A stretch of DNA of 64,000 bases from Clostridiales bacterium (lineage in GTDB: Bacteria > Bacillota > Clostridia > Oscillospirales > Oscillospiraceae), in contig JALFRA010000031.1 of the NCBI GenBank assembly GCA_022785125.1, forward strand, positions 1-64,000, written 5' to 3'. Below the pieces are notes generated by a model. That model was not told the DNA's origin. It ran no database searches and saw only the letters and a program-made list of their open reading frames with translations. This document shows, one piece after another, positions 14,916 to 31,410 of this stretch. A program made the translations under genes and the position numbers. The first letter of the stretch is position 1. Each line of letters begins with the position of its first letter.

Positions 14916-16658
14916 ATGTACAATATGTCTCCGTACTCATTGTCCCGTTCTTTCCGGGACAAACCCTGCCGGGCAGTTATATATGGCCGTGCCTCAACAG
15001 AACACGAGGCCCAGGTCAAAGCCCTTCAGAATCAGATGCAATGGTATGATGATGTTGCTCGTTTTCATCCCCAGTGGAATGTCATCAGCCGCTACATTGA
15101 CCAAGGCATTACCGGAACCCAGGTCTATAAGCGGGATGCTTTTATGCAGATGATGGAGGATGCCAAACAGCATAAATTTGATTTGATCGTCACTCGCGAG
15201 GTCTGCCGCTTCGCCAGAAACACGGTGGATGCTCTGGTCTGCGTCCGTCAGCTTGCCGCTATGGGGATTGAAGTCTATTTTGTGAATGATAACATTTGGA
15301 CTCTTGACGGTGATGGTGAGCTGAGGTTGACCATCATGGCTACTATGGCACAAGAAGAAAGCCGCAAAATCAGTGAACGCTCTCTTGCGGGACAACGGGT
15401 CAGCCGCGAAAAAGGCGTCCTCTATGGAAACGGGAACATTTTTGGATATACCAGGAACAAACTCACCAAGCAGTTTGAAATTGATCCCGATCAGGCGGAA
15501 ACTGTAAAAATGATTTTTGACCTCTATGATTCCGGTATGGGTGAAACCTTGGTAGCAAAAGAGCTGACCCGCCTTGGACGCAAAAACGGGGTGGGTAAGG
15601 TCAAATGGGATGCTGGGAAGGTATCAAAAATCATCAAGCGTAAAAACTATTTGGGGTACACAGTTTACTGTCAGTCCTATTCCAACAACTATTTGGAGCA
15701 AAAACGGATCAAGCGCGACGAGAGTGAGTTCGTCTATGTAAAAGGCGGTTTTCCTCAGATCATTTCAGAGGAGCAGTACGAGCGGTGTAACGCCATTCGT
15801 CGCAGCAGGACCAAACGGCTGACGGATGAAAAAGGCCGCACGCGGAGTTTTGGTGTTCAGCAGGCTCAGAATGTATGGGGCAGAAAAATGAGGTGTCGTT
15901 GCGGTTCTCCCATGCTTCGACATCGTTGGAGAACCAATAATGCAGGAAAGCCTATCTATGGATATGAATGCAAACGACACCATGATACGCCCCGCATCCG
16001 CCTTCAGAATGAACAAGGCAATCCAACACCTATCTGTGAGATCAAGCCGGTTGGACAAAGCAAGCTGGAACTGATGGCCTCCAAAATATTTGAGAGGGTA
16101 TGGGGAGACCAAAGAGAAATCGTCCTCCAGACCTGCAAAATGCTGGATGCTTGCTACAAGCCAGACGCAGATCGTCGAGCAGATTTGATGAAAGCGAAAG
16201 ATGATTCTATTCAGTTGCTCCAACAACAGCTGGATGACTTGGTTGTGGTCCGTGCTCGTGGAGAGATTGAGCAGGATAAGTTCCTCCAGCGGACCATAGA
16301 AATTCAGCAGCAGATGGAGGCCCTTCGTCAGAGCAAAGCTCAAATTGCTTCAGAGGACTACAATCCCGGACGCCTGGATATGGAAGCCATTGAGGCAGCG
16401 TTGTGCGAAGCAGTTGAAATGCATGACGGTCTGGTAAGCGAGGATTTCATTGATCTCTTTGTTTCAAAGGTTACACCACTGTCTGATTCCCGCTTTGCCT
16501 GGTGCTTGGACTTTTCTCCGCAGCCCACAGTTGCCTTTCTGAATTTAGCCGGGCAGAGGAAGTACACGACCTGCTCTATGGATAGTAAATTACACTTTGG
16601 TCCTTTTGCTGATGAGGAGGGGCACACCATCCCTTTTCCGGGCAGCCTGCGTCGGTGA
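14916..16658 (+). CDS. large serine recombinase (ICE integrase)
   Basis: The 580-residue product follows a strong AAAGGAGG site. The N-terminal resolvase domain has the catalytic serine at position 27 in YGRASTE, with the conserved GITGT and REVCRFARNTVD segments. A recombinase domain (GYTRN ... GMGETLVAKELTRLG) follows. Next is a zinc ribbon around CRCGSPMLRHRW ... YGYECKRH, then a coiled-coil (LLQQQLDDLVVVRARGEIEQDKF). These are the domains of Tn1549/TndX-type integrases that insert and excise elements as circles. The gene is intact, unlike the transfer genes, so the remnant may still move as a cargo element. Confidence 0.92.
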   Translation: MYNMSPYSLSRSFRDKPCRAVIYGRASTEHEAQVKALQNQMQWYDDVARFHPQWNVISRYIDQGITGTQVYKRDAFMQMMEDAKQHKFDLIVTREVCRFARNTVDALVCVRQLAAMGIEVYFVNDNIWTLDGDGELRLTIMATMAQEESRKISERSLAGQRVSREKGVLYGNGNIFGYTRNKLTKQFEIDPDQAETVKMIFDLYDSGMGETLVAKELTRLGRKNGVGKVKWDAGKVSKIIKRKNYLGYTVYCQSYSNNYLEQKRIKRDESEFVYVKGGFPQIISEEQYERCNAIRRSRTKRLTDEKGRTRSFGVQQAQNVWGRKMRCRCGSPMLRHRWRTNNAGKPIYGYECKRHHDTPRIRLQNEQGNPTPICEIKPVGQSKLELMASKIFERVWGDQREIVLQTCKMLDACYKPDADRRADLMKAKDDSIQLLQQQLDDLVVVRARGEIEQDKFLQRTIEIQQQMEALRQSKAQIASEDYNPGRLDMEAIEAALCEAVEMHDGLVSEDFIDLFVSKVTPLSDSRFAWCLDFSPQPTVAFLNLAGQRKYTTCSMDSKLHFGPFADEEGHTIPFPGSLRR

Positions 16659-16756: not shown

Positions 16757-17034
16757 TTCAGGGGCGCTGCAGCCGTGCAGCGCCCCTGAGACTGTCAAAA
16801 AAGGCACAAGTGCCTTTTTTGACAAAAGGCTGCATGGCGGGCGAAGCTCGATTTCTTGCGAAATAGTCGCCCCGCCCGCCATGAGAAGTGTCATTTCCGA
16901 GGCTCATGTCCCCGGAAATGACAAATTTTGATCTGATTCCGTCGCCTGCGGGCGACGGAACTCTGCGAGGCTTCCTGCGGGGGGGAGGTTTTTCGACAGA
17001 CTGAGGGGCGCTGCAGCCGTGCAGCGCCCCTGTT
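16757..17034. repeat. six-hairpin repeat element with matching ends
   Basis: Six perfect or near-perfect stems are packed into 270 bases with no ORF: 16761-16786 (11 bp), 16794-16823 (14 bp), 16833-16883 (11 bp with an inner stem), 16889-16923 (11 bp), 16937-16960 (10 bp) and 17005-17030 (11 bp). The first and last are identical. The sequences just inside them (GACTGTC after the first, GACAGAC before the last) are inverted relative to each other, so the whole block has imperfect terminal inverted repeats of about 45 bp. It looks like a non-autonomous (MITE-like) element. Confidence 0.7.
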
Positions 17035-21469: not shown

Positions 21470-21579
21470 AGGTTTTTCCGGGAATTGGCTTTTTTCTCTG
21501 GCAAAAGCCGGCCCCCGGGTGTATGATAGGCATATCAGCCGACCTAGGCTTTGTGAAATGCAAAAGGAGTGACGTCACC

Positions 21580-22914
21580 ATGATTCAAATCGACACCTCC
21601 AACGCCCGTTCTTTCCTGCCCGACACCTGGCTTACCAGCCGTCTGGACGCTCTGGAGAGCGCCCGCCAGAAGCTGGAGACCGGCAGCGGCGCCGGCGGCG
21701 ACTTTACCGGCTGGGTCCACCTGCCCCGGGACTATGATAAAGAAGAGTTTGCCCGCATCCAGGCAGCGGCGGAGCGCATCCGCAAGGATTCCCAGGCCCT
21801 GGTGGTCATCGGCATCGGCGGCTCCTATCTGGGCGCCCGGGCCGTGGTGGAGCTGGTCAACTCCCCCAACTTCAACCTGACCCACAAGGACGGCCCCGCC
21901 ATCTACTTTGCCGGCAACGGCCTGTCCACCGACGCCATGCTGGAGGTCATGGACCTCATTAAGGACAAGGACTGGTCCATCAACGTGATCTCCAAGTCGG
22001 GCACCACCACCGAGCCCGCCGTGGCCTTCCGCATCTTCAAGAACCTGCTGGAGGAGAAGTACGGCAAGGAGGAGGCCCGCAAGCGCATCTACGCCACCAC
22101 CGATGCCCACAAGGGCGCTCTGAAGGGCCTGGCTGACGCCGAGGGCTACGAGGAGTTTGTGGTGCCCGACGCCATCGGCGGCCGCTACAGCGTGCTCACC
22201 GCCGTGGGCCTGCTGCCCATCGCCTGCGCTGGGGTGGACATCACCGCTCTGATGGAGGGCGCCCGGGAGGAAATGGAGGCTCTGGCCGCCCCCGGCGAGA
22301 CCAACCCCGCCTGGCAGCTGGCCGCTGCCCGCCACGCCCTGTACACCGGCGGCAAGAAGGTGGAGATCCTGGTGGGCTACGAGCCCTCCTTCCGCTTCTT
22401 TGGCGAGTGGTGGAAGCAGCTCTTCGGTGAGAGCGAGGGCAAGGACGGCAAGGGCCTGTTCCCCGCCAGCGTGGAGTTTACCGCCGACCTGCACTCCATG
22501 GGCCAGTACATCCAGCAGGGCGAGCGCCTCATGCTGGAGACCGTGGTGCGTTTTGCCAACAGCAACGGCCCCGCCATCACCATCCCCCACGATCCCGACA
22601 ACGTGGACGGGCTCAACTTCCTGGCGGGCAAGGACCTGTCCTTCGTGGCCGAGCAGGCCATGCGGGGCACCCTGCTGGCCCATGTGGATGGCGGCGTGCC
22701 CAACCTGATGGTCACCGCTCCCGGCCGCTGCGCCAGGAGCGTGGGTGCGCTCATCTACTTCTTTGAGTATGTCTGCGGTCTCACCGGCTACCTGATGGAC
22801 ATCAACCCCTTCAACCAGCCCGGCGTGGAGGCCTATAAAAATAATATGTACGCTCTGCTGGGCAAACCCGGCTACGAGGACAAGAAGGCCGAGCTGGAGG
22901 CAAGACTGAGCTGA
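21580..22914 (+). CDS. pgi: glucose-6-phosphate isomerase
   Basis: AAAGGAGT precedes the ATG at 21580. The 444-residue enzyme is the short bacterial form. It carries the sugar-phosphate loop SKSGTTTEPAVAFR, GIGGSYLGARA near residue 80, and DLHSMGQYIQQG with the active-site region. It interconverts glucose-6-phosphate and fructose-6-phosphate in glycolysis. It appears monocistronic. A diverged second copy of its last ten codons lies about 176 bp downstream (23055-23086), beyond a hairpin cluster. Confidence 0.95.
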   Translation: MIQIDTSNARSFLPDTWLTSRLDALESARQKLETGSGAGGDFTGWVHLPRDYDKEEFARIQAAAERIRKDSQALVVIGIGGSYLGARAVVELVNSPNFNLTHKDGPAIYFAGNGLSTDAMLEVMDLIKDKDWSINVISKSGTTTEPAVAFRIFKNLLEEKYGKEEARKRIYATTDAHKGALKGLADAEGYEEFVVPDAIGGRYSVLTAVGLLPIACAGVDITALMEGAREEMEALAAPGETNPAWQLAAARHALYTGGKKVEILVGYEPSFRFFGEWWKQLFGESEGKDGKGLFPASVEFTADLHSMGQYIQQGERLMLETVVRFANSNGPAITIPHDPDNVDGLNFLAGKDLSFVAEQAMRGTLLAHVDGGVPNLMVTAPGRCARSVGALIYFFEYVCGLTGYLMDINPFNQPGVEAYKNNMYALLGKPGYEDKKAELEARLS

Positions 22915-22935
22915 ATATAACGGCTGGCCTTATTG

Positions 22936-23093
22936 TCCTCAGGGACCCGCCGCAGGCGGGACGGCGCTTTTGCGCCGGAGGGCGGCGGGATTCACTTCCG
23001 CCGCCCACAAATGAAAATTCCGGGGTCCCCATGGGAGCGCGCTCCCATGGGGCGGACAAGAAGGCCGAACTGGAAGCCAGACCGGGTTAACAG
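22936..23093. repeat. hairpin cluster plus displaced pgi tail
   Basis: Stems occur at 22946-22960, 22963-22976 and 22980-23006. At 23027-23052 a perfect 26-bp palindrome (CCCCATGGGAGCG and its complement) follows. Directly after it, 23055-23093 reads in frame DKKAELEARPG-stop, against DKKAELEARLS-stop at the true pgi end. The differences in the shared codons are third-position (GAG/GAA twice, GCA/GCC). The 22,915-23,235 gap holds no gene. Confidence 0.7.
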
Positions 23094-30552: not shown

Positions 30553-30691
30553 ATTCAGTCGATCTTATATCCTACCCCCCATGCAAGCGCGGGGACTTCC
30601 TGCGGGAAGTCCGGCGCAGAGCGCCAAGCCGCGCTCGCGGGCGGGAACCAGTTCCCCCCGCGGCCCCCCCTCCGCTCTCCGAGGGGACGGG
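30553..30691. repeat. hairpin cluster plus displaced response-regulator tail
   Basis: On the minus strand 30556-30585 reads AWGVGYKID-stop, a diverged copy of the true regulator end VWGVGYKID-stop at 30696. Differences in the shared GVGYKID codons are synonymous (GGT/GGG, GGT/GGA, TAC/TAT), and the stop is TGA instead of TAA. Between the copies are stems GACTTCC/GGAAGTC (30594-30611) and GGCGC/GCGCC (30613-30625) and a GC-rich stretch. No gene lies here. Confidence 0.7.
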
Positions 30692-30695
30692 AAAT

Positions 30696-31388
30696 TTAGT
30701 CGATCTTGTAACCTACACCCCACACCGTTTTGATAAATCTGGGGTTTCGGGACGGCTCCCCCATCTTCTCCCGCAGGCGGCGGATGTGGACCATGACGGT
30801 GTTGTTCCGGTCCAGGTACTTCTCCCCCCACACGCTCTCAAAGAGCCGCTCAGCGGAGATGACCTGACCCCGGTTTTCCGCCAGCATCCACAGGATGTCA
30901 AACTCGATGGGGGTGAGGCCCAGCTCCTTGTCGTACAGGGTGCACTCATGGGTGGAGCGGTTGATGACCAGTCCGTTGAAGTCCAGAATATCCCGGCTGT
31001 CCCCCTTGTCCGCCTCGTTGTAGCGGGTATAGCGGCGCAGTTGAGCCTTTACCCGGGCCATCAGTTCCAGGGGGTTGAAGGGCTTTGTGATATAGTCGTC
31101 CGCCCCAATGGTGAGCCCGGTGATCTTGTCCATATCCTCCGCCTTGGCGGTAAGCATAAGCACCGGGAAATGGTGGTCCTTGCGGATCTCCCCGCACAGG
31201 ACAAAACCACTGATGTCGGGGAGCATCACGTCCAGGATGGCCAGGTCCACCGACCGGCTGTTCACCACCGCCAGGGCCTGGGTGCCGGTATTGCACTTGT
31301 AGACGGTGCAGCCCTCACTCTGCAAATAGACCTCCACCAGATCGGCGATCTCGGGCTCGTCGTCCACCACCAGAATGTTGGCCTCCAT
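30696..31388 (-). CDS. VanR-like OmpR-family response regulator
   Basis: The second ATG (31388) has the better spacing to AAAGGAGG. The 230-residue protein has a receiver domain with the phospho-acceptor Asp53 (LAILDVMLPD), a VDDEPEIADLVEVYLQ acidic pocket and the Lys of YITKPF. A winged-helix output domain follows (LTPIEFDILWMLAENRG, NTVMVHIRRLREKMG). The receiver is strikingly like VanR (ITGLTIGADDYITKPF.PLEL.ARVKAQLRR). No vancomycin-resistance ligase genes are nearby. The likely partner is the VanS-like kinase at 33120, on the other strand. Confidence 0.9.
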   Translation of the reverse strand: MEANILVVDDEPEIADLVEVYLQSEGCTVYKCNTGTQALAVVNSRSVDLAILDVMLPDISGFVLCGEIRKDHHFPVLMLTAKAEDMDKITGLTIGADDYITKPFNPLELMARVKAQLRRYTRYNEADKGDSRDILDFNGLVINRSTHECTLYDKELGLTPIEFDILWMLAENRGQVISAERLFESVWGEKYLDRNNTVMVHIRRLREKMGEPSRNPRFIKTVWGVGYKID

Positions 31389-31410
31389 AGCCATCCCTCC
31401 TTTTGTCTCA

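Follow-up and report, generated by a model that had tools for sequence, protein, structure and literature searches.

Duplicated end of a response-regulator gene

The window analysed here is a stretch of 64,000 nucleotides (nt) of a Clostridiales bacterium (GenBank assembly GCA_022785125.1, contig JALFRA010000031.1, positions 1 to 64,000). Its minus strand carries a response-regulator gene whose last codons occur twice, once as the gene end in current use (T1) and once further downstream as a displaced old end (T2), with a hairpin element between the copies (Table 1). This element belongs to the second of the two classes described below; the first class is represented in the window by a copy behind a phosphoglucose isomerase gene. 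T1 of the regulator reads TGG GGT GTA GGT TAC AAG ATC GAC TAA and T2 reads TGG GGG GTA GGA TAT AAG ATC GAC TGA. The two share 23 of 27 nt and all 8 residues, and every difference is silent or exchanges one stop codon for another, as an earlier note on this DNA had stated for the shared codons. That note had given the second end as AWGVGYKID-stop; the WGVGYKID-stop copy is present, and the leading A of the copy corresponds to a V in the gene. The terminus of T2 lies at 30555, 141 nt beyond that of T1. The hairpins reported between the copies were borne out by folding: as single-stranded DNA, positions 30550-30725 fold better than 199 of 200 shuffled sequences (z -3.27).

Table 1. Positions of the two host genes, their duplicated ends and the intervening elements in the window.
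Feature	Position	Strand	Remarks
Response-regulator gene, host of the insertion	30696-31394	minus	Pfam: Response_reg and Trans_reg_C (receiver and winged-helix output domain)
Regulator T1, gene end in current use	30696..30722	minus	WGVGYKID-stop (TAA)
Class-2 hairpin element	30583..30692	minus	110 nt
Class-2 hairpin A	30667..30686	minus	CCCCTCGGAGAGCGGAGGGG; 4 copies in the genome at <=2 mismatches, 4/4 exact
Class-2 hairpin B	30636..30663		
Class-2 hairpin C (inner stem)	30593..30612		
Regulator T2, displaced old gene end	30555..30581	minus	WGVGYKID-stop (TGA)
Phosphoglucose isomerase gene, second host in the window	21523-22914	plus	
Isomerase T1	22878..22914	plus	DKKAELEARLS-stop
Isomerase X	22926..22940	plus	Complementary to isomerase sequence that spans the junction: 8-nt run GAGGACAA, then one mismatch and AAGGCC
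Isomerase R, class-1 structured element	22958..23052	plus	R1 match, E 5.9e-12
Isomerase T2, displaced end	23054..23090	plus	DKKAELEARPG-stop

The native arrangement was read from Flavonifractor sp. An112, whose regulator protein is 99% identical. An112 has one regulator end, followed by the sequence found here behind T2; T2 is therefore in the native place, and T1 with the hairpins is the insert. A protein search with the regulator gave 80 loci, and the 15 nearest relatives were checked for end copies: none had a second copy within 400 nt downstream (best 27-mer match 13-16 identities). The An112 end matches T1 at 25 of 27 positions and T2 at 22 of 27, and across the 15 relatives neither is consistently nearer; because 27 nt are too few, the foreign end of the pair cannot be told by sequence.

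The same pattern occurs at a second, unrelated gene of the window, as the earlier note had also remarked. T1 and T2 of the isomerase have the residues DKKAELEAR in common, and the R copy between them was among the 12 sequences used to build the model that matches it. At the An112 isomerase locus (L225) a class-1 copy lies in the same gene end at a different junction, further upstream.

Scan for duplicated gene ends

Stretches of the genome amounting to 0.85 Mb were scanned for genes whose end recurs in frame no more than 400 nt further on. In the first part (464 kb, comprising 20 stretches and the window; 1,307 open reading frames (ORFs) of at least 90 residues), 8 hits reached a score of at least 45 against a mean of 0.0 in three shufflings, two of the hits being one gene read in two frames. 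The second part (20 more stretches, 384 kb, 1,174 ORFs) gave 7 hits at this score against 0 in one shuffling. The excess was smaller at a cut-off of 30 (21 against 13.3 and 19 against 10 in the shufflings). Altogether 14 distinct genes show the layout of gene body (U), T1, hairpins and T2. Twelve, including the isomerase gene, belong to class 1, and the regulator and a mutS2 gene belong to class 2.

Duplicated gene ends are thus more frequent than chance, and the general process at gene 3' ends that the earlier note had proposed from two genes is supported by the layout at 14. To that proposal we add that the hairpins themselves are repeated families of two kinds and apparently mobile. Not all copies keep to 3' ends: some, as described below, can be placed only in antisense at the start of a gene.

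Anatomy of class 1

Along the gene, class 1 has the order U, T1 with its stop, a short segment X, the structured element R, T2 (mostly with its own stop) and further downstream sequence. The R core is about 95-180 nt long; among its 12 founding sequences, 16 of 26 predicted pairs have changed on both sides. The model R1 built from these found 48 R copies in the genome at an expect value (E) <=0.1. The search scored the best 150 of 1,456 first-look candidates, so 48 may be a lower bound.

A T1/T2 direct repeat (alignment score at least 34) flanks 41 of the 48 copies, an outcome in line with the check for hairpin clusters between end copies that the earlier note had proposed. Five rounds of shuffled partners yielded one pair at this threshold (score 47; next 33). 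Thirty-five copies are readable as sense gene ends, with a T1 of 25-136 nt from junction to stop (median 55). For the other 6 of the 41, an antisense position at a gene start is the sole reading; the antisense reading is also possible for 25 of the 35, long antisense ORFs being abundant in this GC-rich genome. In one gene-start case the first codons are duplicated with mostly silent differences, the gene presumably being truB, judged by its peptide; in another, both copies include the start codon and upstream sequence, here and in An112.

Several T1/T2 pairs are identical over at least 50 nt. Past the stop codon, mean T1/T2 identity is 0.39 over the next 15 nt and reaches at least 0.8 in 4 of 32 pairs; a simple insertion duplication does not predict that the repeat ends there. 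The distance from the stop of T1 to T2 is 130-173 nt in the 12 class-1 cases measured and, in class 2, about 110 nt; neither leaves room in the insert for an integrase or homing endonuclease gene.

Some R copies without a T1/T2 repeat (L240, L241 and, in the genome of the window, C11:115639, C11:110145, C14:38292 and C34:23950) were also inspected. Some lie beside apparent tRNA genes and end in a different terminal hairpin; this subset may be a derived class.

A guide-like segment complementary to the U/T1 junction

X sits between T1 and R and is typically complementary over 8-16 nt to the DNA spanning the U/T1 junction. In the genome of the window, at least 8 contiguous complementary nt were found in 37 of the 41 repeat-bearing copies and at least 12 in 20; with mismatched partners, 2.8% reached 8 nt and none reached 12. 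The complementary run spans the junction in 36 of the 37, usually taking in about 5 nt of U and 7 nt of T1. For An112, 29 of 31 R matches were taken, 23 of them with a repeat; X reached 8 nt in 19 of these 23 (null 4.6%), 17 spanning the junction. An earlier comparison covered the 14 loci of the scan; the X run exceeded that with every other gene at 10 of the 12 class-1 loci.

Two further arrangements were noted. At the same gene in two genomes, L210 has an X that fits a junction upstream of the T2 start, and L228 lacks T2; both look like the outcome of recombination between R copies with loss of one T.

polC alleles and distribution of the elements

The polC locus, named by NCBIfam, was examined in all 20 searched genomes of the genus, and its state was called both by eye and from a motif flag. 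It is occupied in 7, holds a remnant (T-X, with R gone or partial) in 3 and is empty in 10. The complementarity is 12-15 nt in the 7 occupied genomes, 13, 13 and 8 nt in the 3 remnants and 4-7 nt in the 10 empty ones, and X changes between species in step with the target codons. This is covariation of insert with target, seen at this one gene. Other host genes with core functions include infB, nusA and fhs.

R is present in 20 of 20 searched genomes of the genus, at 9-63 copies each. Single-genome searches found 31 copies in An112 and 94 in G030, a distant genome of another family. The multi-genome search that gave these 9-63 copies found no R in the 5 other genera it covered within the family. 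When the order was sampled more widely, under stricter filters and with 12 candidates scored in each genome, R turned up in 30 of 295 genomes and 17 of 148 genera, among which were further members of the family. In other genera and families the flanking repeat was found at 18 of 20 further copies, the 18 including some head-to-tail copies and one hairpin repeat that is not a gene end. A gene end occupied here can also be occupied in a different genus, as at the regulator end of L373, and 16 of the 48 own-genome copies lie at genes that also hold a copy in An112. Head-to-tail units were found at five loci in four relatives, loci that had been picked for their close pairs of R hits.

In G030, some of the 94 R matches form short head-to-tail runs (L191, L248-L276). 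Thirty of the 94 copies were inspected; among the matches listed, a gene-end repeat was seen at two (L270, L273) and most were without one.

Selection on the displaced ends

T1 and T2 were compared in 31 sense pairs, which may include some misread antisense cases that were left in; 10 of the 41 copies were set aside (8 not readable as sense ends, 2 with insertions or deletions). There were 107 silent and 41 non-silent differences, the proportions per silent and non-silent site being pS 0.283 and pN 0.032 (pN/pS 0.11). The T2 stop is in frame in 25 of 31 pairs, and one T2 has a premature stop.

A four-way comparison with An112 used 10 of the 16 shared genes; two were excluded as lacking a repeat and one each as lacking T2, having another junction, lying at a gene start or giving a short alignment. 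Between species, T2 differed from T2 at 47 silent and 5 non-silent positions, and T1 from T1 at 36 and 2. Within species, T1 differed from T2 at 16 silent and 6 non-silent positions here and at 24 and 7 in An112. In 23 columns T1 and T2 are the same within a species and differ between species; 5 columns show the reverse. Changes private to T2 number 23 silent and 4 non-silent, against a neutral expectation of about 78% non-silent (P 4e-12), and those private to T1 number 8 and 4. The silent differences to which the earlier note had drawn attention are thus far above neutral expectation, and the displaced ends are under coding selection, not dead relics. Either T2 is often the live end, the insert coming and going, or it is used otherwise.

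The class-2 hairpin family

Over 103 nt, the 110-nt regulator element shares 86% identity with the element that follows the mutS2 gene of the same genome. Class 2 gave 16 matches in 9 of the 20 searched genomes of the genus, 6 of them flanked by a gene-end repeat as judged by eye (the regulator, mutS2 and one each in G019, G008, G014 and G017). The copy in G017 adjoins a class-1 copy at the same gene. Since no X was found in class 2, we claim at the regulator locus the layout and the displacement of the old end and make no claim of a guide.

At three loci (L334, L335 and L336), class-2 copies without a gene-end repeat lie in what is apparently one coding region in three genomes, perhaps with in-frame readthrough.

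Proposed mechanism and alternatives

The layout recurs at dozens of genes, relatives carry occupied, remnant and empty alleles, X covaries with its target at polC, and both T1 and T2 are constrained. We consider it probable that these are short, ORF-less mobile elements that lodge inside genes, some tens of nt away from the terminus or, in antisense, from the start, and bring with them a working copy of that terminus. A unit of T1, X and R would insert at the junction of U and T, which would be recognised by base pairing of X, as RNA or as single-stranded DNA. T1 would keep the host gene working, and frequent loss of the unit would leave U-T or U-T-X, so that the displaced terminus would repeatedly be live. 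More tentatively, such an element could be aimed by a nucleic-acid guide of 12-15 nt, remaking gene termini, harmless in core genes and homing in relatives.

Several observations weigh against this proposal. No insertion or excision event was seen, the alternative alleles coming from different species, and the route of the unit to a new gene, for which both a new X and a new T1 are needed, is without explanation. Seven of the 48 R copies lack the T1/T2 repeat at the threshold used, and An112 has a copy with T1-X-R from which T2 is absent. T1/T2 likeness mostly ends at the stop codon, even where the coding part is identical, and T1 and T2 must exchange sequence, because 23 columns are shared within species. 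X is shorter than 8 nt in 4 of 41 copies, and outside the genus, where the signal is weaker, it reaches 8 nt in 10 of 18. The isomerase run of 8 nt is unexceptional by length (best run with other genes 10), as is that of one more class-1 locus (8 against 8). No X was found in class 2, where neither scanned locus stood above other genes: the regulator and mutS2 runs are 5 and 6 nt, with other genes' best at 7 and 8. Ten of the 16 class-2 matches show no visible gene-end duplication.

Nor does any of three candidate mobilisers, RVT_1, Y1 transposase and IS110, track R, each having no match in some copy-rich, near-complete genomes; these tests rest on such genomes, as many of the genus are incomplete. 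At E <=1e-5, RVT_1 (PF00078) had no match in G006 (26 copies, 99% complete) or G030 and was present in 13 of 40 genomes, including that of the window. Y1 (PF01797) had none in G014 (63 copies, 99% complete) or G030 (98% complete) and was present in the genome of the window and 13 others of the 40. IS110 (PF01548) had none in G014 or G030 and was present in 11 of the 40, again including that of the window.

Ordinary transposition with a long target-site duplication, T2 being dead and decaying, would account for the direct repeat at 41 of 48 copies, for the pairs identical over 50 nt or more and for the 4 of 32 pairs alike past the stop. It is nevertheless unlikely, since T2 shows no decay (pN/pS 0.11, with 23 silent against 4 non-silent private changes), the repeats mostly end at the stop codon, and complementarity and covariation of X with its target have no place in it. 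Equally doubtful is the view that T2 stays intact solely by gene conversion from T1. The 23 columns shared within species and differing in other species speak for such exchange, as do T1/T2 mismatches that climb towards the stop, from 0.06 to 0.16 by fifths; the private changes of T2, however, date from after the last exchange and are 23 silent to 4 non-silent, where an unconstrained sequence would give about 78% non-silent.

A slightly better, though still improbable, alternative is a new kind of intron, in which X would base-pair with both the 5' splice site and the 3' exon, T1 would leave with R, the mRNA would be U-T2 and both ends would be used. X spans the junction like an internal guide sequence, T2 is under coding selection and R is a structured RNA, all as an intron would have it. 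We hold this reading low mainly because of the antisense copies at gene starts: for 6 of 41 copies this is the only position, and there the gene transcript would carry the wrong strand of R. In two such cases T2 is apparently intact by eye (C29:24888, and C8:3587 with its An112 counterpart L246). Moreover, T1 is already a complete end with its own stop, and no Rfam intron family matched in the stretches searched. Five 20-kb stretches that include five of the scanned cases (L108 alone being class 2) had no Rfam match at the gathering threshold, and a search of three single elements at a loose E value gave no intron; the best weak match was RT-15, at 19.4 bits against 82 needed, on the opposite strand. 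Least probable by far is an origin of the displaced end from a separate regulator since deleted, as the earlier note had considered, or from chance. Response-regulator ends are short and alike; yet 14 genes show the layout, and the sequence downstream of T2 is native, matching that of An112, with a second copy in none of the 15 relatives.

Two further ideas were dropped. A diversity-generating retroelement does not fit, as the differences affect more than one type of base and reverse transcriptase (RVT_1) does not follow the distribution of R. Recoding of T1 to escape re-cutting was abandoned because several T1/T2 pairs are identical over at least 50 nt.

Comparison with known systems

In Escherichia coli, the prophage e14 inserts in icd and gives it a new 3' end, the old end (icdC) lying on the far side; 165 bp are affected, with 12 nt exchanges and 2 residue changes (PMC11148124). 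Phage 21 uses icd likewise, and phages and chromosomal islands supply gene ends in the same way (PMC4129442). The likeness to e14 and phage 21 is that an insert swaps the 3' end of a gene for its own version and displaces the old one. e14 differs in being a prophage with an integrase at one gene, whereas the elements described here are ORF-less, about 110-175 nt long, at dozens of genes and, in class 1, equipped with a guide-like segment. e14 and such islands are large and encode an integrase.

Fungal mitochondrial mobile open reading frames (mORFs; Allomyces atp6; Glomus atp6, atp9, cox2 and nad3) supply a new C-terminus and displace the native one downstream (PMC3630166). Their spread is explained there by endonuclease-driven insertion and horizontal transfer (PMC3630166). 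They encode LAGLIDADG or GIY-YIG endonucleases and reside in organelle genomes, and the relevant portions of that account contain no guide segment (PMC3630166). The features common to gene-end-restoring elements of the e14/icd and mORF type, a working terminus and mostly silent differences, are found here also.

Repetitive extragenic palindromes and bacterial interspersed mosaic elements (REP/BIME), with their REP-associated tyrosine transposase (RAYT, a Y1 enzyme), are similarly short hairpin elements in many copies. We know of no gene-end duplication or target-complementary segment in them, and Y1 transposase is unmatched in two copy-rich, near-complete genomes with R. Group I and II introns have, beside a structured RNA, a guide that pairs with the bases on either side of the insertion site. 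R differs from these in being small, in lacking an Rfam threshold match in the searched stretches and in having some copies antisense to the gene. In IS110, target DNA to the left and right of the insertion point is bound by base pairing with a non-coding bridge RNA (PMC11208160). Its separate left and right guides, however, pair with opposite strands and it has a recombinase, whereas X is one continuous segment complementary to one strand, in an insert with no gene; IS110 too was unmatched in two copy-rich, near-complete genomes with R.

No report of an ORF-less element joining gene-end replacement with guide pairing was found among the titles and abstract beginnings searched. For this reason, and since no Rfam family matched at threshold in the stretches searched, we rate the family as new, though its working logic has precedents. 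If the proposal is true, this is a mobile element that avoids insertion damage because it brings along the end of the gene it enters; it does so at dozens of targets per genome and with no protein of its own. An X that matches the insertion point and covaries with it at polC suggests guided insertion outside the three enzyme families examined. The mechanism is directly testable, since close relatives differ in whether a site is occupied, empty or holds a remnant, and An112 and others are named isolates. Annotators should also note that, in these bacteria, the 3' ends of many genes may have been replaced recently.

Another hairpin array in the window

Downstream of the ORF at 14916-16658, identical 29-nt palindromes AGGGGCGCTGCAGCCGTGCAGCGCCCCTG at 16760-16788 and 17004-17032 bracket more hairpins; the pair and the hairpins between them are possibly another compound hairpin element.
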